Assembly (NCBI RefSeq): GCF_006717075.1
Contig: NZ_VFQC01000001.1
Coordinates: forward strand, 1,907,501-1,971,500
DNA from: Haloactinospora alba
GTDB taxonomy: Bacteria; Actinomycetota; Actinomycetes; Streptosporangiales; Streptosporangiaceae
Length of the DNA: 64,000 nt
Reading direction: 5' to 3'
The position numbers were made by a program, and so were the translations under genes. Positions 24,936-35,244 of this stretch are shown here, piece after piece. A model generated the notes under the pieces. That model saw only the letters and a list, made by a program, of their open reading frames with translations. It was not told the DNA's origin and ran no database searches. Numbering within the stretch: position 1 is the first letter of the stretch; every line of letters starts with the position of its first letter.

Positions 24936-25069
24936 GGCGCACTCCCTTTGTTTCCTGGGGTCGGGCACGGTCGTCGCCTCGTTTCAGGAGGGTCGTAGCC
25001 GGGGTTACCCGCTCGGCGCGTCGGCGACACCCGTGCGGTACGGCTCGGTTGGCCCGAGACAGCCTCCGG

Positions 25070-25084
25070 CATAATGGGCCCGTG
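25070..25084 (+). promoter_or_regulatory. Leaderless promoter of the PPTase gene
   Basis: CATAAT (25070-25075) ends 6 nt before the GTG start at 25082, placing the expected transcript start at or next to the start codon. No ribosome binding site is visible. The -35 region is weak (TTGGCC at 25049). Confidence 0.5.
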
Positions 25085-25837
25085 GTGTCGGTAGAGCTGT
25101 GGTGGTCCACTCCGCGGGCCGCGGAGAATCCCGAGTTGTCGGACCTGCTCGACGCGCGGGAGCGGGCGAGGCGGGAGCGTTTCCGGTTCCAGGACGACCG
25201 GGACCGCTACACCGTGGCCCACTCCCTGGCGCGGCTCGTGGTCGCACGCTTCTCCGGCCGCGCTCCCGACACCGTGGAGTTCTCCCGGTACTGCGCCAAC
25301 TGCGCGTCCGGGCAGGAGACGCCGACTGGCAGCCGGGAGCCGCACGGGAAACCGTATCCCCTCGGGGCCGCTTCCGGTGTGGAACTCTCGATCAGCCATT
25401 CGGGCGAGCGGGTCGTGGTCGCCGCGGCCCGGGAGGTCCCGCTCGGGGTGGACGTGGAACGGGTCTCCTCGGAACGCGACCTCGCGGGGCTGGCTGGGTA
25501 CGCGCTCACGGAGGCGGAACGGCACGCGCTTTCGGGGCTTCCCCCCGACTTCCGGACGGAGGGGTTCTTCACGTACTGGGCCCGCAAGGAGGCCTCTCTC
25601 AAGGCGACCGGAGAGGGCTTGGGCGGAGGGCTCGCGTCCGTGGAGGTGAGCGGCGCTGACGCGGCCGCCGCTGTCGTCTCCTGGACGGGCCCCCGCCCGC
25701 CCCGCGACGTCCGGTTACTCGACCTCGACGCCGGTTCCGGTTACCGCTCCGCTCTGGCCGCCCTCACCCCCGAACCGCTTCACAGCGTCTCGTACGACGC
25801 CGGATCCCTCCTCGCCCGGGGGCGGAGGCACGGCTAG
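25082..25837 (+). CDS. 4'-phosphopantetheinyl transferase, Sfp type
   Basis: It transfers phosphopantetheine from CoA to carrier proteins of polyketide, nonribosomal-peptide or fatty-acid synthases. The 251-aa length and the motifs fit the Sfp group: KPYPLGAASGVELSISHSGE, LGVDVERV with the metal-binding Asp, and FFTYWARKEASLKATGEGL. There is no synthase gene in the window, so it probably acts on clusters elsewhere. Leu codon 212 (25715-25717) is TTA, rare in high-GC actinomycetes. Translation probably starts leaderless at the GTG at 25082. Confidence 0.92.
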   Translation: MVSVELWWSTPRAAENPELSDLLDARERARRERFRFQDDRDRYTVAHSLARLVVARFSGRAPDTVEFSRYCANCASGQETPTGSREPHGKPYPLGAASGVELSISHSGERVVVAAAREVPLGVDVERVSSERDLAGLAGYALTEAERHALSGLPPDFRTEGFFTYWARKEASLKATGEGLGGGLASVEVSGADAAAAVVSWTGPRPPRDVRLLDLDAGSGYRSALAALTPEPLHSVSYDAGSLLARGRRHG

Positions 25838-25847
25838 GTGCTCCGCC

Positions 25848-26483
25848 CTAGGCTGCCAGTGCCAGCGCGATCCCGAACGCGGTCAGTGTGATACCGCTCG
25901 TCAGCTCGATCCCCTGCCGTACCCGGCGACGACGCATCAGGTCCGCCAACCGCGCTATCGCCAGCACGTACACCAGCCACCAGGTCGCGGCCATCGCCAC
26001 GACGATCCCGCCCAGGAGGGCGGTCTGGGCGGTCGCCTCGGGGCCGGGCGTGACGAACTGCGGCAACAGGGTGACGAAGAACGCGAGCGCCTTGGGGTTG
26101 AGCGCGTTGTTCATCACCCCCTGCCAGAACGGTGCCCCGCCCCGCTGGTCCGGTTCCGTGCGCTCCGCGGCGGGAGCCGGCGCGCGGTGGGCGCGCCACA
26201 CTCCCACGAGCGCGCTCACCCCCAGGTAGCTCAGGTAGCAGGCTCCGGCCACGCGCAGCACGAGCAGAGCGGTCCCGCTGGAGGCGATGAGCACTGTCAG
26301 TCCGGCCACGGCGAGTGTCGCGTATCCCGCGAGCGCCGTCGTCGTACCGGCGGCCGTCGCCAGGCCGGCGGCCTTCCCCCGGGCGAGCGTGTTGCGAGTG
26401 ACGAGGACGAAGTCGGGTCCCGGGATGACGAGGACCAGAGCCAGGGTGGTGACGAACAGGTACAGGTGCTCCGGCACGGGCAT
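25848..26483 (-). CDS. LysE/RhtB family amino-acid exporter
   Basis: The 211-aa membrane protein has about six hydrophobic segments and the family hallmark PGPDFVLVTRNTLARGKAAGLATAAG (residues about 21-46, in outline). It also has the GVMNNALNPKALAFF motif. Members export amino acids or their derivatives. It diverges from the Lrp/AsnC gene, the usual arrangement in which the regulator controls the exporter. The ATG at 26483 has GAGGGG upstream. Confidence 0.9.
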   Translation of the reverse strand: MPVPEHLYLFVTTLALVLVIPGPDFVLVTRNTLARGKAAGLATAAGTTTALAGYATLAVAGLTVLIASSGTALLVLRVAGACYLSYLGVSALVGVWRAHRAPAPAAERTEPDQRGGAPFWQGVMNNALNPKALAFFVTLLPQFVTPGPEATAQTALLGGIVVAMAATWWLVYVLAIARLADLMRRRRVRQGIELTSGITLTAFGIALALAA

Positions 26484-26539
26484 AGGTCCCCTCACACGAA
26501 TACGTACGGATACTCCACAACGACACGCAGGCTTGGCCC

Positions 26540-26620
26540 GGCCATCAAACGGCTCATGCACTATAATTATGTATTTAAAACGACAAAAAAAGCAAATCAC
26601 CGAATGAAATTTTTCAAACC
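26540..26620. promoter_or_regulatory. AT-rich divergent promoter between lysE-type and lrp-type genes
   Basis: The region and the first codons of the regulator are far more AT-rich than the surroundings. A perfect -10, TATAAT (26562-26567), overlaps the symmetric ATAATTAT, and a run of A residues follows. The element probably serves both divergent genes and the Lrp-type protein, which tends to bind bendable AT-rich DNA. Confidence 0.55.
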
Positions 26621-27091
26621 ATGGAAAATACGCAATTAGATTCGAAAGATTTGGAAATCCTGCGGGTGCTGCAGAACGATGCACGGATGACCAACCGGGA
26701 TCTCGCCGCGGCGGTGGGGATCGCACCCTCCACATGCCTGGACCGGGTCGCACGGCTACGCGACGCGGGAGTGATCACGGGACACGCGCTCCGCGTCTCT
26801 CCCCAGGCACTGGGGCGTCCGATCCAGGCCTTCCTCTCGCTGGAGGTCCAGCACAGCAGTGAATCGATGGTGTCGCTGGTGGAGCACATCCGCGCGCAAC
26901 CGGAGACGCGGGCCCTGTACCACCTGGCCGGACCGGACGACTTCCTCGTCCTGGTCGCCGCGGCGGACGTCGCCGACCTGCAGCGCCTCGTGGTCGAGGA
27001 GTTCACGTCCCTGACCGAGGTCACTCAGGTACGGACGATGCTGGTCTTCCAGGAGTGGGACGCGGGACCGCTCCTCCCTCCCCAGCGCTGA
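26621..27091 (+). CDS. Lrp/AsnC family transcriptional regulator
   Basis: The 156-aa protein has an N-terminal AsnC-type helix-turn-helix (LDSKDLEILRVLQ, MTNRDLAAAVGIAPSTCLDRV in outline) and a C-terminal RAM ligand domain with YHLAGPDDFLVLV. It would sense an amino acid and control the divergent exporter. The first dozen codons are AT-rich, and Leu6 is encoded by TTA (26636-26638). A short CTCACT/AGTGAG stem follows the stop at 27100-27115. Confidence 0.9.
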   Translation: MENTQLDSKDLEILRVLQNDARMTNRDLAAAVGIAPSTCLDRVARLRDAGVITGHALRVSPQALGRPIQAFLSLEVQHSSESMVSLVEHIRAQPETRALYHLAGPDDFLVLVAAADVADLQRLVVEEFTSLTEVTQVRTMLVFQEWDAGPLLPPQR

Positions 27092-27243
27092 GTATCGCCC
27101 TCACTCCGAAGTGAGACGCACCTGTCGTCGGGTAAGGAAGAACTGCCTTGTGCGGTGCCACGAGGCATGTGAAGGATATGGACCGTGCGTAACCACACGA
27201 AGATCCGGTCCCCCCACAACGGCAGCCGACGCGTCGTTCGCAT

Positions 27244-29328
27244 GTGAGTATGGCCTCCGCAGGCTCCGGGACCCAGTGTTCCCATGGCCGTCCGACAGCT
27301 CCCCCCACTGCGGGGACACAGCACGGAACCAGTGCCCCCGACCCGTACCGGTGGCTCGAGGAGCCCGACTCCGTGGCAACCCGGGAGTGGCTGCGTCAGC
27401 GACACAGCGAGTTCGCGGCGGCCGCTTCCGACTGGCCCCTGCGCACGGCTCTGGCCGCCGAGATCCGGGACCTGGTGGACACCGAGCTGTGGTCCGCGCC
27501 GGAACACCGCGCCGGCTGGCTGTTCGCCACCCGGCGCGAGGCCGGGGCGAACCACCCCCGTCTCCTGGCGATCGCGGAGGGACGGGAACGAACGCTCTTC
27601 GATCCGGAGGTCCTCGACCCCAGCGGTCGTACCACCCTGGACGGCTGGAGCCCCGGACCCGGCGGAGAGCTGGTCGCCGTGCAGAGCTCGACGGGAGGCA
27701 CGGAACGGGGCGAGCTCCGTGTCCTGTCCACCCGCTCCGGGCTTCCCGTGGAACCTCCCGTCCGGGGGCTGCGGTACTCCCACATAGCCTGGCTCTCCGA
27801 CACCGAGGCGCCGGCCTTCTACTACGTCCGCCGGGACAGTGGCAGTGGCGAGCGCGGAATATGGTTGCACCGCGTCTGCTCCGACGAACCCGACGTTCTG
27901 GTGCGCTCCTGTGCCGAACCGGGCAGCGTTCCCGGTGTTCGCCTGCTGGGGCAACGGTGGTTGCTGGCCACCGAGAGCCACGGCACCGGCCACAGAACCG
28001 ACCTGTGGCTCGCGGACATCGGCGCTTCCGGCGGCAACGCGGCCGAGCCGCGTTGGACGACCGTGCACGAGGGACGTGACATCGTCTCCGACGCCGAGCT
28101 CGGAACGGACGACCGGCTGTACTTCCGTACGACGTTCGGAGCCGAACGGCGCCGGATATGCGTTGCCTCCCCGCACAGTCCGGACACCGCGCACTGGCGT
28201 GAGGTCGTCCCCGAGTCCCCGGACGCGACCCTGGAAGAGTTCACCGTCCTCGGCGCGGGGAAGGACACCGAGCTGCTGGTCACCCGCACCCGTCTGGGCG
28301 TCAGTGACCTCACCGTGCACGATCCCCGCGACGGGCGGACACGGCGCCGCGTCACGCTTCCGGGGGCGGGTATGGCGAACGGGCTGACCTCGGCCCCCCA
28401 GGGGCGCGCCTACATCCACTATGCCGACGTCACCCGCCAACAGACCGTCCTCGCTCTCGGCGCAGGTGGGTACGAGCCGCACCCGTGGCCGGACAGCTCC
28501 CGTGTTCCGCACGGGGAGCCGTTCGAACACCGGGTGTTCTGGTGCCGTTCGGCAGACGGCACCCGCGTTCCGGTCTCCGTGTTCACCCTGTCCTCCCGCG
28601 GGGACCCCCGGTCCGGACGACCCACCGTCCTGCACGCCTACGGAGGGTTCGGGCGGCCCCGCCAGTTCGGGTTCAGCGCCACCGTCCTCGCGTGGTTGCG
28701 TGCGGGGGGCTCCTACGCCGTCGCTCACGTACGGGGAGGCGGGGAGGGAGGACGCGGGTGGCACGTCGCGGGAGCCCGGCGCAACAAACCCCGCTCGGTA
28801 CAGGACCTGGTGGCCGCTGCGGACGCCCTGGTGGCCGGCGGTTACTGCGCGCGCGAGCAACTGTGCCTCTCCGGGGGGTCGGCCGGCGGCCTCCTCGTCC
28901 TCACCGCCGCCACGTCACGTCCCGACGTGTGCTCGGCCGTCATCGCGCTGGCCCCCCTCGCCGACATGCTCCGCTTCGAACGTCTCGGTCTGGGCAGGAT
29001 GTGGACGCGGGAGTTCGGCACCGTTGCCGATCCCCAGGACCTCACCGCCCTGTTGTCGTACTCCCCCTACCACCGGGCGTTGGCAGCGGGCGAACGTCGC
29101 TATCCCGCCGTCCTCATCAACGGTTTCCACGGGGACACCCGCACCGACGCCGCACACGCGCGCAAGATGTGCGCCGCTCTGCAGCGGGTCGGGTACGGCG
29201 GACCGATCCTGTTGCGCTACGAACACGGTGTGGGCCACGGACAGCGTTCTGTCGCCCGGGCTGTCGAACTCGCGGCGGACGCCCACGCGTTCGCCGCGGC
29301 ACGAACGGGGCTGTCGCCGGACCGGTAG
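27244..29328 (+). CDS. Prolyl oligopeptidase family serine peptidase (S9A)
   Basis: The 694-aa cytosolic peptidase has an N-terminal DPYRWLEEPDS motif, a seven-bladed propeller region (about 80-430), and an alpha/beta-hydrolase domain. The catalytic triad is intact: Ser546 in SGGSAGG, Asp631 in FHGDTRTD and His665 in YEHGVGHG. There is no signal peptide. Family enzymes cut peptides shorter than about 30 residues, mostly after proline, and several act as leader peptidases or maturases in lanthipeptide and other RiPP pathways. A small peptide gene lies 49 nt downstream on the same strand. The start may instead be the ATG at 27250; no clear ribosome binding site is seen. Confidence 0.93.
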   Translation: MSMASAGSGTQCSHGRPTAPPTAGTQHGTSAPDPYRWLEEPDSVATREWLRQRHSEFAAAASDWPLRTALAAEIRDLVDTELWSAPEHRAGWLFATRREAGANHPRLLAIAEGRERTLFDPEVLDPSGRTTLDGWSPGPGGELVAVQSSTGGTERGELRVLSTRSGLPVEPPVRGLRYSHIAWLSDTEAPAFYYVRRDSGSGERGIWLHRVCSDEPDVLVRSCAEPGSVPGVRLLGQRWLLATESHGTGHRTDLWLADIGASGGNAAEPRWTTVHEGRDIVSDAELGTDDRLYFRTTFGAERRRICVASPHSPDTAHWREVVPESPDATLEEFTVLGAGKDTELLVTRTRLGVSDLTVHDPRDGRTRRRVTLPGAGMANGLTSAPQGRAYIHYADVTRQQTVLALGAGGYEPHPWPDSSRVPHGEPFEHRVFWCRSADGTRVPVSVFTLSSRGDPRSGRPTVLHAYGGFGRPRQFGFSATVLAWLRAGGSYAVAHVRGGGEGGRGWHVAGARRNKPRSVQDLVAAADALVAGGYCAREQLCLSGGSAGGLLVLTAATSRPDVCSAVIALAPLADMLRFERLGLGRMWTREFGTVADPQDLTALLSYSPYHRALAAGERRYPAVLINGFHGDTRTDAAHARKMCAALQRVGYGGPILLRYEHGVGHGQRSVARAVELAADAHAFAAARTGLSPDR

Positions 29329-29377
29329 CCGATGCGTGCGGCAGCTCACGCAGATGGGAAGAGAGGTGAGAACAGCA

Positions 29378-29485
29378 ATGGACCAGATCGAGATCGAGGT
29401 CGAGGACCTCAGCGAGGTCACGTCGCGGGACATCACCGCGGGCGGCGACAACGACGGCACGGACTCCAGCTCCGATTTCATCTGA
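29378..29485 (+). CDS. Short acidic peptide, candidate RiPP precursor
   Basis: This 35-aa ORF starts MDQIEIEVEDLSEV, continues with a TSRDIT segment, and ends in a Gly/Asp/Ser-rich tail, GGDNDGTDSSSDFI. A strong ribosome binding site (GAGGTGAG, 7 nt before the ATG) shows it is probably translated. The alternating hydrophobic/acidic N-terminal half resembles leader regions of small RiPP precursors, and the tail offers Asp, Asn, Ser and Thr for modification. It lies between a peptidase and a JmjC/cupin oxygenase (gaps 49 and 82 nt). I know no named family; the precursor role is inferred from context. An in-frame ATG at 29354 would add eight residues. Confidence 0.65.
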   Translation: MDQIEIEVEDLSEVTSRDITAGGDNDGTDSSSDFI

Positions 29486-29567
29486 GGTTCCCGACTCCCG
29501 GCGGCGTGTGGCTGGCGGCATCGCCAGTCACACGCCCGGTACGTGTCCCCCCTCGGAAGGTTTGTGC

Positions 29568-30746
29568 GTGACCGACCACCTGTTCACTGAGACACTGCGC
29601 GCGGCTGTCGGAGACGACCTCCTCACCCGACGACTCTCGGAGGAGGTCGTCTTCGCTGACCTGGGGGCGGAGACCGTGCGCCCGTTGCTGGACTTCACCG
29701 CCCTGAGCGACCTACTCACCACGCATACGTTGGAGCCCCCACGGTTGCGGCTGCACAGCGCCGGCTCCCCCGTCCCCGCGGAGCGCTACACGGAACCGGG
29801 CACGGCCTCGCCCGCCGGCCGGGGAACGATCCGCCCGGAAGCGCTGTACCGGGAGCTGCGGGACGGCGCCAGCCTCGTTCTGGACAGCGTCGACCGGCTG
29901 CATCCACCGGTTCGCGCGGCGGCCGACGACCTCATGCGTATGGTGCGCGAACGGGCCCAGGCGAACCTCTACCTGATCTGGGGAGACTCCTACGGTTTCG
30001 ACACCCACTGGGACGACCACGACACGTTCGTCGTACAGCTCGCCGGAACGAAATCGTGGCAGGTGCACGGCCAGGGAGACCGCCGCAATCCGATGAAGGA
30101 GGACACGGACCATCGCCACGGTCCGCCCGGGGGAACCGTGTGGGAGGGAACCCTGCGTCCCGGCCACGTCCTGCACGTTCCCCGTGGGTGGTGGCACACG
30201 GTGAGCGGGACCGGCGACGTCAGTATGCACCTCACCTTCGGTTTCACCCGCACCACCGGGATCGACTGGGTCGCCTCCGTTCTCGAACGGTTGCACGAGG
30301 ACGAGTTCCTGCGTGCGGACATCCCGCGGTTCTCCTCCGCACAGGAGCGTCACGAGCACCACCGGGAGCTCCTGCGCCGCCTCACGGAGACTGCCGAGCG
30401 GCACGGTATCGACGGGTTGCTCAACGAACGTGCCGCGCGTTTCCCGCGCCGGCAGTCGTTCGCGCTGCCGTGGGCGGTGGACGGATCCGAGCCGGAGGAG
30501 CACACCGTGGCGGAGTTCGTTCCGGTGGTGTGTCCGCCGCTGGAACGGGGCGGGACGAGTGTCGCCCTCTCCGTGTCCGGACGCCGCTACCGCTTCCCCG
30601 CGCGTGTCGAGCCGGTGCTGTCCGAACTCGTCGAACAACGGTCGCTGACGGCGGGGGAACTCGCCGAACGCTCCGGATGCTCGCTGGACACGACCGCGGA
30701 GGTCCTGCGTGTCCTGGTGCGCAACCACCTGGTGCTGCTTCGGTGA
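29568..30746 (+). CDS. JmjC/cupin_4 family Fe(II)/2-oxoglutarate oxygenase
   Basis: The 392-aa protein is a cupin-fold oxygenase of the ribosomal-oxygenase (ROXA/YcfD, JmjC) type. The iron triad is visible as His147 and Asp149 in THWDDHD and His210 in PRGWWHTVSG. The C-terminal part (about 240-392) has a helical region and a winged-helix-like end, as in ROXA enzymes, which hydroxylate protein side chains. The GTG at 29568 has GGAAGG 7 nt upstream. Its partner is probably the short acidic peptide just upstream, with hydroxylation of a residue in it or a later RiPP step; this is inference. Confidence 0.85.
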   Translation: MTDHLFTETLRAAVGDDLLTRRLSEEVVFADLGAETVRPLLDFTALSDLLTTHTLEPPRLRLHSAGSPVPAERYTEPGTASPAGRGTIRPEALYRELRDGASLVLDSVDRLHPPVRAAADDLMRMVRERAQANLYLIWGDSYGFDTHWDDHDTFVVQLAGTKSWQVHGQGDRRNPMKEDTDHRHGPPGGTVWEGTLRPGHVLHVPRGWWHTVSGTGDVSMHLTFGFTRTTGIDWVASVLERLHEDEFLRADIPRFSSAQERHEHHRELLRRLTETAERHGIDGLLNERAARFPRRQSFALPWAVDGSEPEEHTVAEFVPVVCPPLERGGTSVALSVSGRRYRFPARVEPVLSELVEQRSLTAGELAERSGCSLDTTAEVLRVLVRNHLVLLR

Positions 30747-30762
30747 CCTGTCCGGTAACGAA

Positions 30763-30810
30763 GAGCGACTCCGTGTCCCGTCACCCGGGTGACGGGACAC
30801 GGAGTCGCTC
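30763..30810. terminator. 48-bp perfect palindrome, bidirectional terminator
   Basis: Two 24-nt arms are exact reverse complements with no spacer (left arm begins GAGCGACTCCGTG, centre CCCGGG). It sits between the oxygenase stop and the convergent POT transporter stop, so it can end both transcripts. Confidence 0.75.
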
Positions 30811-30822
30811 CGGGAGCGCCGG

Positions 30823-32304
30823 TCACACGGCCAGCTTGACGTCCCGGGGTTTCGGCTCCGCCATCAGACCGCGAAGCTTGCCCAGGAAGAACATCATGGC
30901 GATCCCGCCCAGTACCGCAACACCACCAAGCAGCAGGTAGTAGTCCCCTCCCAGCAGGGGTTGCAGGCGGCTCACCTGGCCACCGACCGCGTCTCCGGCG
31001 GAGATGGACAGGAAGAACAGCCCCATCATCTGGGCGTGGAAGGCCTTCGGGGCGAGTTTGGAGGTCATGGACAGTCCGACCGGGCTCAGGCACAGTTCCG
31101 CGATCGTCTGCAGGAAGTACACCCCCACCAGCCACATCAGACTCACCTGGACCGAACCGCCCTGCGTGGCGAGGGTAGCCGCGTACATCAGCACGAACGA
31201 GAGACCGCACAGCACGAGCGCCACGCTGAATTTCGCGCCGGTCCCCACCCGGTCGCCGAGTTTGCTCCAGACGAAGGCGAACACGCCCGCGAAGACGATC
31301 ACCATGACGGGATTGATCGCCTGGGTCCATCCGGCTGGTATCGCGAACCCGCCGACGGTCAGGTCAGTGCTGTTCTTCGCGAACAGCGTGAGTGGACCGG
31401 CGGCCTGGTCGAATATCATCCAGAAAACGGCCGAGGCGATGAAGAGCCACACGAACGCCTTGAGTTTCACCCGTTCCTCGCCGGTCATGTCGCCGCTTCG
31501 GAACACGAACATATAGACGAAGTAGCAGACGGGAACGACGAGGGCGAGCGCGGTCAGGGCATAGGTCACGTTGTCCACCGTCAGCGTCCCGGTGGCAAAC
31601 GCGACGATCCCGATAACGAGGACCGCTGCGACAACTGCGGTGACACGGGGCTTCAGCGCGGACTTCTCCGCTTCGGAAAGCGGGTTTCCGGGCCGTTCTC
31701 CCGCCTTTCCGAGGTTCCCTCTCCCCAGGACGTACTGGATCAGTCCCAGTGCCATCGCCACAGCGGTAATTCCGAACCCGAAGTGCCAGGAAACGTTCTC
31801 ACCGACCCAGCCGACGAGGAACAGACCGATCGCCGAACCGAGGTTGATCCCCATGTAGAAGAGAGAGTATCCGGCGTCCCGGCGGGACGCGGATTCCGAC
31901 TCCCCCTCCTCGTCGTACAGTTTTCCGACCATGGCGGAAACGTTGGGCTTGAGCATCCCCGTTCCGGCGCACACCAGCGCCAGTCCCGCCCACACGAAGA
32001 ACGACCCGAGCTGTATGGCCAGGGATATGTGCCCCAGCATGATAACGATTCCGCCCACGAGGACGGCGTTCCGCTCACCCAGGACACGGTCGGCGATCCA
32101 ACCTCCGGGAAGGGCCGTGAAGTAGCTCATCGACAGGTAGATACCGACGATGGCGGTAGCAGCCCCCTCTGCTATTCCCATTCCTCCTTGACCCACCGAT
32201 GCGACAAGGAAGAGAACGAGGATCGCACGCATTCCGTAAAACGAAATGCGCTCATTCATCTCAGTTCCAGCAAGGGTGATCAACCCTCTTGGATGTCCGC
32301 GCAC
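30823..32304 (-). CDS. POT (PTR2) family peptide transporter
   Basis: The 493-aa protein has about 14 hydrophobic segments and is a proton-coupled di-/tripeptide importer. It carries the ExxER proton-coupling motif (EMNERISFYGMRA) in the first helix and the PTR2 segment LPGGWIADR near residue 80. The later FYMGINLGSAIG segment is also family-typical. The start is set at the GTG (32304), 10 nt after AAGG, rather than at an upstream TTG. It converges on the oxygenase gene, so its link to the peptide operon is positional only. Confidence 0.9.
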   Translation of the reverse strand: MRGHPRGLITLAGTEMNERISFYGMRAILVLFLVASVGQGGMGIAEGAATAIVGIYLSMSYFTALPGGWIADRVLGERNAVLVGGIVIMLGHISLAIQLGSFFVWAGLALVCAGTGMLKPNVSAMVGKLYDEEGESESASRRDAGYSLFYMGINLGSAIGLFLVGWVGENVSWHFGFGITAVAMALGLIQYVLGRGNLGKAGERPGNPLSEAEKSALKPRVTAVVAAVLVIGIVAFATGTLTVDNVTYALTALALVVPVCYFVYMFVFRSGDMTGEERVKLKAFVWLFIASAVFWMIFDQAAGPLTLFAKNSTDLTVGGFAIPAGWTQAINPVMVIVFAGVFAFVWSKLGDRVGTGAKFSVALVLCGLSFVLMYAATLATQGGSVQVSLMWLVGVYFLQTIAELCLSPVGLSMTSKLAPKAFHAQMMGLFFLSISAGDAVGGQVSRLQPLLGGDYYLLLGGVAVLGGIAMMFFLGKLRGLMAEPKPRDVKLAV

Positions 32305-32646
32305 GAAAGAACCAACCTTTTCGCGACCTGCTCTTGTGGAGCACAAAAAACACGCGTATTCCGCCGGCTGTGGCCGGCTTGGAAAAGCTCACGTTCCTCG
32401 GTTACCGGAATTCCGGATCCGGGAGAGGGCCGGTATTGCCCGACGCCGCGCACAGAAGCCGGACAACCCGAAATAAACCGTACCACAAAAATGTGAGACT
32501 CAGTACGTTATATCTCATGTTCCGCGGAAGCCGGGCACCGGAAACGGGAACGCCCGCGACGCGGGGAAACCGGAACGCGCCGCTTCCGCCGCACCCCGGG
32601 CAGGCCACCCCACTGGCCAGGAAGATCATTGCTTCGCACCACGACA

Positions 32647-32665
32647 TTAGGGTAGCCTCATCTAA
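32647..32665 (+). promoter_or_regulatory. Iron box (IdeR/DmdR-type operator)
   Basis: TTAGGGTAGCCTCATCTAA agrees with the actinobacterial IdeR/DmdR consensus TTAGGTTAGGCTAACCTAA at 15 of 19 positions. It lies 80 nt upstream of the FhuF-like gene. The remaining DNA from 32305 shows no gene. Confidence 0.75.
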
Positions 32666-32744
32666 CAGGCGGGGACGCAGTGCCGTACCGCATCGTGACG
32701 CGTCCCGTCGTCTCACCACTCCGTCCAGGAAGGTTGATGCGTGC

Positions 32745-33611
32745 ATGGCCACGAACCAGCATCCGCTGCAAGCGGTGGTCGATGCCTGCACGCCGTTGAA
32801 GTTCGCTCCCCTCCCGGACATCCGCACTCCCGGATTCCCAGCGAACCATGACCAGCCCACCACTCAACGCTGGTACCGCGCCGACCTGATGGCCGCCGAG
32901 GGTGCCGTGGGAGAACTGTTCGACCGCACGGCCCAGCGGAACGGTCAGCACAAGCTCCCCGCCGCCACCCGCTTCCTCCGCGCACTGCTGCGCGAACCGA
33001 TCTTCCTCGTCTCGGCGGGCCTATACCGCACCGGCCGCGCACCGCTGGTCGACGCCCAGCACCTGTGGTTCCCGTGGACGTCGGACGCGACCTTCGGTAC
33101 CCCTACCGTGACCAGCGCAGCGATAGCGGTACTCGCGGACGACCCCGCTGCCGAGCATCCGGACGCGCTCGTCGTGGGCGGAGAGAGCGCCGCGTTGGAG
33201 CAGGCGGCAGCGCAGCACATGGTCAACGCCTTCTCCCCGATCATCGACGCCGTGCACGCCCACACCCGGGTGGGGATGCGCACCCTGTGGGGGTGGGTAC
33301 TGGACACCACGCACTTCTACATGCTCAACCCCGCCCGCTACCTCTGCCATGACGCGGAGGAAGCATGGGAGCGGGCACACCGCCTGGGCGAGGAACTGAT
33401 CCGCGCCGGCGCCCGGACCCGTTCCCGGCCGCGCCTGTTCCCCTTCTGCGAGAACCACCCACAGGGCACGTGGGCGGTACGCGGAACCTGCTGCTTCGCC
33501 TACAAGGACGACGCGGAACACGGCGTCTGCACCACGTGTCCGCTCAAACCGGACTCCGACCGGCGTGCCGAGCTCCAGGAGTGGATCCGCGATCCAGCCC
33601 TCGCTCCCTGA
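32745..33611 (+). CDS. FhuF-like siderophore-iron reductase, [2Fe-2S]
   Basis: The 288-aa protein ends in the FhuF iron-sulfur motif CC-x11-C-x2-C (Cys249, Cys250, Cys262, Cys265). FhuF proteins reduce ferric siderophore complexes to release iron in the cytoplasm. The iron box just upstream supports repression by iron through a DmdR/IdeR protein. The ATG at 32745 is chosen because no better in-frame start exists; AGGAAGG lies 11 nt upstream. No siderophore synthesis or uptake genes are adjacent. Confidence 0.85.
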   Translation: MATNQHPLQAVVDACTPLKFAPLPDIRTPGFPANHDQPTTQRWYRADLMAAEGAVGELFDRTAQRNGQHKLPAATRFLRALLREPIFLVSAGLYRTGRAPLVDAQHLWFPWTSDATFGTPTVTSAAIAVLADDPAAEHPDALVVGGESAALEQAAAQHMVNAFSPIIDAVHAHTRVGMRTLWGWVLDTTHFYMLNPARYLCHDAEEAWERAHRLGEELIRAGARTRSRPRLFPFCENHPQGTWAVRGTCCFAYKDDAEHGVCTTCPLKPDSDRRAELQEWIRDPALAP

Positions 33612-33834
33612 CGACCCACGCCCTCGCGGGCACACCGCCGCCCGCTGCCAAGCGAGAGAGGGGGACATTCCGGCGGTGGCACCCTCCGCCGTGGAGCGGC
33701 CGCGCCCGCGGTGACCGGACCGTACGGGTGGACGCCCGCAGCGGTCTCCGTCCCGTCGCCCCCGTCCCTATCCGAAGCGAGGGCTCAGGCCCGACGGTGG
33801 GTTCCCTGACCGCAGAGGGCGGAACAGGGTGTCA

Positions 33835-33849
33835 CATAATGTACCAATG
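33835..33849 (+). promoter_or_regulatory. Leaderless promoter of the CLC gene
   Basis: CATAAT (33835-33840) ends 6 nt before the ATG at 33847, so the transcript probably begins at the start codon. No ribosome binding site precedes it. The layout matches the PPTase promoter. Confidence 0.5.
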
Positions 33850-35244
33850 AAGTTCACACACTTACGTCCGGACAACCGGACATCCGCGGCACGCCTGTTG
33901 CGACTTCCGAACCATAGCCTCTCGTGGCGCATCCCGTGGGGGCTTCTCGCCCTCGCGCTCACGATCGGAGTCGGTTCGGGACTCGGAGCGGTGGCGTTCC
34001 GCTGGCTCATCGACACGTTCACCCTGCTGTTCTCCGGACACGAGGATTACGCAGCCGCCGGACACGCGGCCCACCCCTACGTTCCCCAGCTGGGCATGTG
34101 GTTCCTGCTCCTCGTCCCGCCACTGGGCGGACTGCTCTACGGCCCCCTGATCGAGAAGTTCGCCAACGAAGCCCGCGGCCACGGCGTTCCCGAGGTCATG
34201 GCATCGGTAACCCACGACGGGGGGCGGATCGCTCCCCGGGTCGTCCTGGTGAAATCGCTGGCTTCCGCGCTGTGTATCGGTTCCGGGGGTTCGGTGGGCA
34301 AGGAGGGGCCGATCGTGCAGATCGGCTCCGCGCTCGGCTCGGTGTTCGGCCGCCTCGCCCGCATGGACGGATCCCGTCTGCGCCTTCTCGTCGCGTGCGG
34401 AGCCGCCGGTGGTATCGCAGCCACGTTCAACGCGCCACTGGCCGGTGTCTTCTTCGCCATGGAGCTGATCCTGGGAGAGTTCACCGTCCGGACGTTCGGG
34501 CTGCTCGTCCTGTCGAGCGCTACCGCCAGTGTCCTCAGCCGTGTGCTGGTCGGCGGTGAGCTGTTCCTGACACTCCCCCCGTTCGATGTGGACCATCCGG
34601 CCGAGTACCTTCTCTTCGCTGGCGTCGGTGTCGCCGCCGGTGCTGTGGGGGCGGGGTTCGCACGCCTGCTGTATCTGGTCGAGGACACGGTCGCGCGGAT
34701 CTGGCGCGGCCCCGAGTGGTTGCGTCCCGCCGCTGGCGGACTGCTGCTCGGCGCGCTGCTGCTGGCGCTGCCGCAGCTGTACGGGGTCGGTTACCCGGCG
34801 CTGCGGAACGCCATCGAGGGACAGTACGTGCTCTGGTTCCTTCTGGCCCTGCTCGTCGGGAAGATGCTGGCTACCAGCCTGACGCTCGGCATCGGCGGAT
34901 CGGGCGGCGTCTTCGCTCCCAGCCTCTTCCTCGGAGCCGTGTTCGGTACGGCGTGCGGCATGCTCATGCATTCGGTGGCTCCCGCGCTCGCCGGGCCCGC
35001 GGGAGCTTACGGGGTCGTCGGGATGGGTGCGGTGTTCGCCGGTGCCACCCGCGCTCCCATCACGGCGACGATCGTTATCGTGGAGCTGACCGGGGAGTAC
35101 GCGCTCCTGTTGCCGCTCATGCTGGCAGTGGTGCTGGCTACCGGGGTGAGCCGCCTGCTGTCCGCCGAAACGATCTACACCATGAAACTGCGCCGGCGGG
35201 AGGCGGAACCGGACCTCTCCCCGCTTCCCGCGGCCAGAGGGTGA
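33847..35244 (+). CDS. Chloride channel/transporter, CLC family
   Basis: The 465-aa membrane protein has the CLC anion-pathway motifs: GSGGSVGKEGP with the gating Glu (about residues 144-154) and the later GIGGSGGVFAPSLF near 350. MGAVFAGATRAP follows. There are no C-terminal CBS domains, as in many bacterial CLC exchangers. The GKEGP glutamate suggests H+/Cl- exchange rather than a pure channel. Leu6 is encoded by TTA (33862-33864). The ATG at 33847 fits the leaderless promoter better than the upstream GTG at 33829. Confidence 0.92.
   Translation: MKFTHLRPDNRTSAARLLRLPNHSLSWRIPWGLLALALTIGVGSGLGAVAFRWLIDTFTLLFSGHEDYAAAGHAAHPYVPQLGMWFLLLVPPLGGLLYGPLIEKFANEARGHGVPEVMASVTHDGGRIAPRVVLVKSLASALCIGSGGSVGKEGPIVQIGSALGSVFGRLARMDGSRLRLLVACGAAGGIAATFNAPLAGVFFAMELILGEFTVRTFGLLVLSSATASVLSRVLVGGELFLTLPPFDVDHPAEYLLFAGVGVAAGAVGAGFARLLYLVEDTVARIWRGPEWLRPAAGGLLLGALLLALPQLYGVGYPALRNAIEGQYVLWFLLALLVGKMLATSLTLGIGGSGGVFAPSLFLGAVFGTACGMLMHSVAPALAGPAGAYGVVGMGAVFAGATRAPITATIVIVELTGEYALLLPLMLAVVLATGVSRLLSAETIYTMKLRRREAEPDLSPLPAARG

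Follow-up and report, generated by a model that had tools for sequence, protein, structure and literature searches.

The Haloactinospora alba DNA analysed here (64,000 nucleotides, referred to as the window; positions are counted within it) contains a three-gene operon encoding a prolyl oligopeptidase (POP), a 35-residue peptide and a JmjC oxygenase. The operon is probably a minimal cassette for a ribosomally synthesized and post-translationally modified peptide (RiPP), in which the JmjC enzyme, guided by a domain resembling a RiPP recognition element (RRE), hydroxylates the Asp-rich core of the precursor and the POP trims it. The JmjC protein would recognize the leader, with the motif [FIV]xVEVEDLxEVTSR, through its fused RRE-like domain. 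This Fe(II)/2-oxoglutarate oxygenase would hydroxylate the core D-x-D-G-T-D-x-S-S-D-F-I, most likely at one or more Asp residues. The diverged POP would then cut the leader off, perhaps behind the conserved Ala21 in TA/GG, and an iron-controlled FhuF-like protein encoded downstream may work with the product or the enzyme.

The trio had been named in a preliminary description of this DNA, and its coordinates, lengths and spacing were all confirmed. The three genes lie on the plus strand, with gaps of 49 nt between POP and peptide and 82 nt between peptide and JmjC. The features on which the argument rests are as follows.

27244–29328, plus strand: POP gene (S9A prolyl-oligopeptidase-like, 694 aa; Pfam); 27244 is the predicted start
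29363–29370, plus strand: ribosome binding site of the peptide gene, GAGGTGAG, 7 nt 5' of the ATG (sequence)
29378–29485, plus strand: precursor peptide gene, starting with ATG, 35 aa, MDQIEIEVEDLSEVTSRDITAGGDNDGTDSSSDFI (conservation, codon-level constraint)
29441–29482, plus strand: putative peptide core, approximately residues 22–35, behind a leader of approximately residues 1–21
29568–30746, plus strand: 2-oxoglutarate oxygenase gene, JmjC_2 (PF08007), 392 aa, with an RRE-like domain at the C-terminus (Pfam, E 4.6e-23; model; Foldseek)
30501–30743, plus strand: residues 312–392 of the JmjC protein, RRE-like domain (AlphaFold2, Foldseek, VIA)
32647–32665, plus strand: putative IdeR/DmdR-type iron box, TTAGGGTAGCCTCATCTAA
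32745–33611, plus strand: FhuF-like [2Fe-2S] gene with CC-x10-C-x2-C motif, associated partner (FhuF_C, motif, co-occurrence)

Conservation of the putative precursor gene and its oxygenase

A search for the JmjC protein gave matches in 23 of 60 genomes (its own and 59 relatives), seven relatives standing at 66–72% identity; across the family, 153 of 341 genomes and 36 of 68 genera had a match. We read 68 of 69 close matches, the window included, and left out one fragment at a contig edge; these window-type loci are called clade A. The close-match genomes, named from the best 80 of 467 relatives (79 loci), include Nocardiopsis, Streptomonospora, Thermobifida, Marinactinospora and others. All three genes, with the POP directly upstream and the peptide in the gap, are present in 67 of the 68 loci; in the exception, the contig begins 63 bp before the JmjC gene. 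The preliminary description had regarded two patterns as contrary to its proposal. Loss of the peptide from relatives keeping both enzymes was not found, the peptide being present in every locus that extends far enough. Enzymes occurring mostly apart were not found among the orthologues either, as a POP of at least 57% identity occurs only in the eight operon genomes among the 60. The other JmjC clades have their peptides without this POP nearby.

The consensus of the 67 peptides is approximately M(D)P..xEVEVEDLxEVTSRD[ITVL]TAGGD[SNT]DG[TSK]D[SG]SSDFI. Over the 12 core codons, pS is 0.26 and pN 0.048 (ratio 0.18), the leader has the same ratio of 0.18, and 36 nucleotide versions of the core give only eight amino-acid versions. 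These substitution patterns make translation of the open reading frame (ORF) very likely and show purifying selection on the peptide. The tail DxDGTDxSSDFI is the most conserved, near-invariant portion. Clade A thus does not show the conserved leader with variable tail that had been expected; such a pattern emerges only from a comparison across JmjC clades. In a blind scan, small ORFs with ribosome binding site and leader motif were found upstream of JmjC in 61 of 68 clade A loci and in 42 of 49 loci of the more distant types B–D, against 6 of 591 control ORFs from the same loci; six clade A and five type B–D peptides failed the strict motif. The view that the peptide is a precursor is thus supported, as the gene is conserved, precursor-like and tied to the JmjC enzyme. 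The peptide is very probably a substrate that the oxygenase hydroxylates.

Searches of Pfam and NCBIfam with the window peptide, and of NCBIfam with five other precursors, revealed no family of such precursors, and one peptide of the Asp-Gly type described below gave only chance-level NCBIfam matches to repeat adhesins. A peptide profile run against 296 genomes of the phylum returned the own genome and one weak match, without reaching the other precursor types. Cys is absent from all 67 peptides, and the window core has no Arg beyond position 17.

The JmjC protein exceeds the cut-off of JmjC_2 clearly (81.6 bits versus 22). The iron triad H147/D149/H210, pointed out earlier, is invariant in the 45 rows chosen for alignment; of 28 additional JmjC proteins, taken from the other clades, 23 show a simple HxDxH pattern. 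With the AlphaFold2 model (pLDDT 90.7), Foldseek matched NO66, MINA53, YcfD and YxbC; the closest solved structures are ribosomal oxygenases. Residues 312–392 were also modelled alone (model md02b8103d7f3, pLDDT 93.6). The RRE-bearing Foldseek matches to this domain were McbB, TruD (TMq 0.71, E 0.06), ThcOx, MibB, PbtF, TbiB1 and MccB, next to YcfD-type ribosomal oxygenases and MarR regulators. In VIA, TbiB1 with its leader reached Z 8.5 (rmsd 2.7, 75 residues aligned), PbtF 8.2 and PqqD 7.5. These comparisons suggest that the C-terminal domain has an RRE-like fold, a fold which is not exclusive to RREs. As the JmjC enzyme carries this domain, a leader-guided oxygenase acting on the window peptide is the best reading.

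Several observations weigh against the cassette as proposed. With E-values of 0.05 or worse, the Foldseek matches of the RRE-like domain are weak and thus suggestive. Proteins other than RREs score as high or higher in VIA (MINA53, Z 10.6; a methyltransferase, 8.9; KICSTOR-GATOR1, 8.2); as NO66, MINA53 and YcfD share this C-terminal winged fold and unrelated proteins score in the range of the RREs, the fold alone is no proof of peptide binding. Neither a cyclase nor a dedicated exporter was identified among the scanned neighbours. The peptide has no conserved Pro for classical POP cleavage, and the POP is absent beside other JmjC clades. In two of the 49 type B–D loci (L045 and L047) no peptide was seen, and the conserved tail of clade A gives no signal of diversification.

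The iron-box partner and the protease

The preliminary description had spoken of only these three parts. This has to be revised, since an FhuF-like gene with an iron box accompanies the trio. The protein matches FhuF_C (23.7 bits, cut-off 20.5) and contains the CC-x10-C-x2-C motif in its translation; because the FhuF domain PF06276 scores 18 bits, below the curated cut-off of 25.2, we name it 'FhuF-like' only. Of the 68 loci, 60 have the gene downstream on the same strand, where it starts 1.3–6.4 kb from the JmjC start. By genus it is present in 15 of 17, and in the remaining two the sequence is cut short. Among the 60 genomes, matches with E below 1e-20 are confined to the eight operon genomes and genome G011 (G and L numbers denote genomes and loci of our set). 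Five operon genomes have further FhuF-like copies at 32–37%, and eight of the 60 genomes give weak matches (E 1e-8 to 1e-3) without having the operon. Locus L037 has, about 0.7 kb away from its full gene, another, short match (L037:323-436) to the FhuF-like [2Fe-2S] C-terminus.

An iron box is located 72–171 bp upstream of the aligned FhuF-like start in all 60 loci, and upstream of POP, peptide or JmjC in none of the 68 window-type loci. Mononucleotide-shuffled sequence gave two matches in 734 kb, and none is expected in the window; the window box is one of three places in its own genome with two mismatches. In G011, which has a peptide–JmjC–FhuF locus of its own and is a separate case, a box matching at 17 of 19 positions precedes the FhuF gene. 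The JmjC frame of this genome is broken by one TGA, whereas peptide, iron box and FhuF-like frame are intact (L041:5205-6047), which indicates either a pseudogene or a sequencing error.

In Pseudonocardia, Acidobacteria and part of the class-wide loci, an unrelated Suc_Fer-like gene is found in place of the FhuF-like gene. In all three Pseudonocardia loci, a box of at least 14/19 lies between a divergent Suc_Fer-like gene and the peptide, 154–158 bp from the peptide start. A ferric-type binding-protein gene in cis was found only in P. acaciae, where a Peripla_BP_2 gene, presumably for a ferric-siderophore/B12-type binding protein, directly follows JmjC and is preceded by a 14/19 iron box (L216:7212-8256). 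A Suc_Fer-like gene follows JmjC in all four acidobacterial loci and in 14 of 20 class-wide loci, the calls being checked by Pfam for L215, L219, L229 and L247 only, and in neither group is a box close by. The 20 class-wide loci contain a single box of at least 14/19, placed 4.2 kb upstream of JmjC in L293, a locus without a Suc_Fer match. Fur boxes were considered for the four acidobacterial loci and rejected, the best reaching 11–14/19 compared with 11–12 in shuffled sequence, and the one with 14 (L245) lying more than 5 kb away from the precursor. The queries used gave no Suc_Fer match in the 68 window-type or the 49 type B–D loci; FhuF matches occur in 60 of the former and one of the latter (that of G011). 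Judged from gene content, a [2Fe-2S] partner is common outside types B–D, its place being filled by two unrelated families, and iron control is clear only in some lineages.

It is a serious possibility, to which we give not quite even weight, that this partner is an electron donor which keeps the JmjC iron reduced, and that the peptide has nothing to do with iron uptake, serving as an antibiotic, a signal or a structural peptide. The same place being taken by two unrelated [2Fe-2S] families is consistent with such a donor, as are the Suc_Fer-like genes directly downstream of JmjC in the 14 class-wide loci, which have no boxes nearby, and the window-type operons, none of which has an upstream iron box. 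However, the window-type partner is placed 1.3–6.4 kb away with an iron box of its own, which points to a role under iron limitation. Furthermore, 48 of the 49 type B–D loci have neither an FhuF nor a Suc_Fer match, which argues that their JmjC enzymes need no such donor; 45 of the 49 have an aldo/keto reductase.

The POP of the operon matches Peptidase_S9_N (8.9e-42) and Peptidase_S9 (1.5e-36). Its catalytic triad had been described as intact, and this holds for the relatives: Ser546 is conserved in 65 of 66, one row being gapped there, and Asp631 and His665 in all 66. Copies of at least 57% identity are present only in eight of the 60 genomes (the own and seven of 59 relatives), all of which have the operon. 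Apart from these copies, the best POP matches reach 50% over a fragment of 226 residues (G040) and no more than 47% over greater lengths, one of the latter being the second POP of the window's own genome at 44%. Trp587 is retained in all 66 operon POPs. At positions 547, 591 and 634 they carry Ala (60 of 66), Phe (66 of 66) and Thr (65 of 66), in contrast to the Asn, Tyr and Val of the second copy. These positions would correspond to Asn555, Tyr599 and Val644, which surround the S1 pocket in porcine POP. Because the pocket positions are changed and four of the 67 peptides are free of Pro, the specificity of the operon POP is probably altered. On its distribution, the POP is apparently dedicated to the operon, yet a lineage-specific add-on to the JmjC–peptide pair; none of the 49 type B–D loci gives a POP match.

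Cleavage at a conserved proline was rejected, since those four peptides have no Pro (one of them, L087, only through the choice of an internal start) and most others have it solely at position 3. The suggested cut behind Ala21 is a guess based on the xTAG segment preceding the core; the segment is absent in Pseudonocardia, where no POP match is near. There is a fair case, which we nevertheless doubt, that the POP does not process the window peptide and instead has another substrate or degrades the modified peptide. It can draw on the lack of a conserved Pro and on the three Pseudonocardia loci, all of which keep the core without a POP match within about 6 kb on either side. Against it stand the restriction of close copies to operon genomes (8 of 60), the pocket residues which differ from those of the own-genome copy, and the change of the pre-core residues (xTAG) where the POP is absent.

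Other JmjC–peptide loci and the nature of the product

A small gene just upstream is also found for JmjC relatives at about 30–50% identity. In types B–D (L041 included) it was seen by eye in 47 of 49 loci, in L145 weakly. The type B–D leader resembles LxVAVEEIxxVRSR and is followed by cores such as QPSDGGSTGKSDLNDG or EHSDPTGTSVGDDGENRD. Aldo/keto reductase matches occur in 45 of these 49 loci and in none of the 68 window-type loci, and APH-like matches in 42 of the 49; the reductase queries miss some members, one of which Pfam reveals next to JmjC in L226. A second JmjC–peptide locus in the own genome belongs to type B and contains genes for an aldo/keto reductase and an APH-like protein (L043:5093-8146, G000:C3:312592-315645). 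All three Pseudonocardia loci combine the core of the window with a different leader, e.g. ETNGDNDGSDLHSDFI, and all four acidobacterial loci encode precursors of 104–142 aa with DSDGTD/DADGTD repeats. The core motif DxDG[TSGN]D thus recurs beside JmjC in Pseudonocardia, G011 and, as repeats, Acidobacteria.

In each of the 20 class-wide loci, an Asp-rich, mostly Asp-Gly-repeat ORF ends within 60 bp of the JmjC start. This count is descriptive, as the loci were hand-picked for taxonomic spread after peptides had been seen in three of them, and the scan kept only Asp/Asn-rich, basic-poor ORFs, with no control. By eye, types A, B, C, D and Pseudonocardia share a leader motif and have cores differing by clade, and the Asp-Gly type differs in its N-terminus. 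In a maximum-likelihood JmjC tree (55 rows, one long branch flagged; L281, L282 and L293 were left out as no start was found), each precursor type falls on one branch, and partner genes sort with precursor type.

Some loci deserve separate mention. Long ADGG-repeat ORFs directly before JmjC and Suc_Fer-like genes occur in L285, L289, L298 and others from many actinobacterial families. The acidobacterial L229:5004-5842 has two tandem DxDGTD-type or Asp-rich precursors ahead of one JmjC gene. The JmjC frame of L166:4921-6990 (689 aa) runs across an aldo/keto reductase match, either as a fusion or by a lost stop, and that of L129 is open for 706 aa.

Such bacterial peptides very probably form a large, largely undescribed family, some beside iron-controlled genes. 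A single JmjC-RRE oxygenase together with Asp-rich precursors would be the common basis of this RiPP family, and its range would extend from Nocardiopsaceae to Streptomyces and Acidobacteria. Across 67 genomes, each from a different species, the window-type product hardly varies; this suggests a conserved role in physiology rather than in chemical warfare.

One specific role for the product is a tentative idea which we consider unlikely, namely that of a ribosomal siderophore. The JmjC enzyme would beta-hydroxylate Asp, the POP would free the peptide, Fe(III) would be bound, and the [2Fe-2S] protein would reduce it to release the iron. The four Asp residues of DxDGTDxSSDFI would be enough for three bidentate hydroxycarboxylate sites. 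The FhuF-like role would be taken by the Suc_Fer-like proteins in Pseudonocardia and Acidobacteria, and the acidobacterial DxDGTD-repeat precursors would be multi-site versions. If the iron link is true, a beta-hydroxyaspartate iron chelator would here be made ribosomally; such chemistry is known to us only from non-ribosomal siderophores.

Less probable still is another core chemistry of the JmjC enzyme, such as desaturation, ring formation, or backbone or C-terminal oxidation. 2-Oxoglutarate enzymes are versatile, one study reportedly describes macrocyclization in RiPPs by a 2-oxoglutarate dioxygenase, and most type B–D loci carry the extra aldo/keto reductase. The fold neighbours, however, are hydroxylases, and the JmjC or cupin-like RiPP enzymes BipG and PbsQ are described as hydroxylating in the passages concerned with them. 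That the JmjC protein is a ribosomal oxygenase, as its closest solved structures NO66, MINA53 and YcfD might imply, and the small ORF a regulatory leader or chance ORF, is very improbable given the amino-acid conservation of the peptide in 67 loci, the control rate of 6/591 in the blind scan and the other precursor-like ORFs in the peptide's place in other JmjC clades.

Two neighbours were rejected as parts of the RiPP cassette: an Lrp-type regulator (26621–27091), found in 7 of 68 loci and 4 of 17 genera, and a POT transporter (30823–32346), found in 6 of 68 loci and 3 of 17 genera. A 4'-phosphopantetheinyl transferase gene (25049–25837) has a homologous upstream neighbour in 12 of 17 genera, which we treat as probable synteny. 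No match to a sigma-70-type promoter was found in 26500–33000, and an Rfam scan of 25500–34000 gave nothing at the gathering score. Two further elements were noted.

29503–29536, plus strand: perfect 15-bp hairpin in the peptide–JmjC gap, a possible attenuator on weak evidence (fold)
30763–30810, no strand assigned: 48-bp perfect palindrome, terminator-like, between the convergent JmjC and POT genes

The hairpin of the window has a z value of only −1.3 in mononucleotide shuffles, and 34 of 67 gaps are below −2. The palindrome had already been reported and was borne out by the sequence.

Comparison with known systems

JmjC-domain enzymes acting on a ribosomal precursor are likewise represented by BipG, PbsQ and BpmG (JmjC or cupin-like), described for biphenomycin-type RiPPs. 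In passages of the respective report, BipG of biphenomycin biosynthesis hydroxylates ornithine in the RiPP precursor in vitro (PMC12707348), and a +16 Da hydroxylation is given for both BipG and PbsQ (PMC12707348, PMC12257519). As described there, the ornithine substrate is made by an arginase and the clusters contain MNIO, B12-rSAM and TldD genes. In the window operon, JmjC is the sole oxygenase identified; the two are set apart by these descriptions, not by sequence alignment. The locus of Streptomyces sp. SBT349 (L226:5949-8155) contains a JmjC gene, a 53-aa peptide (core ...FAKTHARPAVPNLAQMFG...) and then an arginase-family gene, reminiscent of the arginase–JmjC pair in biphenomycin clusters. 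Fusions of PF08007 with an RRE were described by Bregman et al. (2025) for fish and algae, with the closest bacterial homologues (about 30% identity) in RiPP-like contexts (PMC12710340); in its main-text passages on these fusions, neither a precursor or core motif nor a POP, FhuF or Suc_Fer partner is described. In our literature search, in which most subscription papers were outside reach, no paper was recognized as describing a family of JmjC-RRE oxygenases with Asp-rich precursors.

NO66, MINA53 and YcfD share the fold, the HxD...H triad and the C-terminal winged domain with the window JmjC, which differs in being paired with a dedicated Asp-rich peptide gene. A Lys of the window protein aligns with K162 of NO66, presumably a residue with a role in 2-oxoglutarate use.

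Class III lanthipeptides use POP leader peptidases, with an S9A peptidase beside the precursor. Membership in this class was rejected, as it calls for Cys together with Ser/Thr in the core and the 67 peptides contain no Cys; they also have no conserved Pro, and no lanthionine synthetase was found among the scanned neighbours. Methanobactins and bufferins are RiPP metallophores which rely on copper, MNIO chemistry and Cys-based ligands. They have in common with the window operon a ribosomal peptide and a link to metal; the window operon differs in its Asp-rich core, its JmjC enzyme and its iron-box neighbour.

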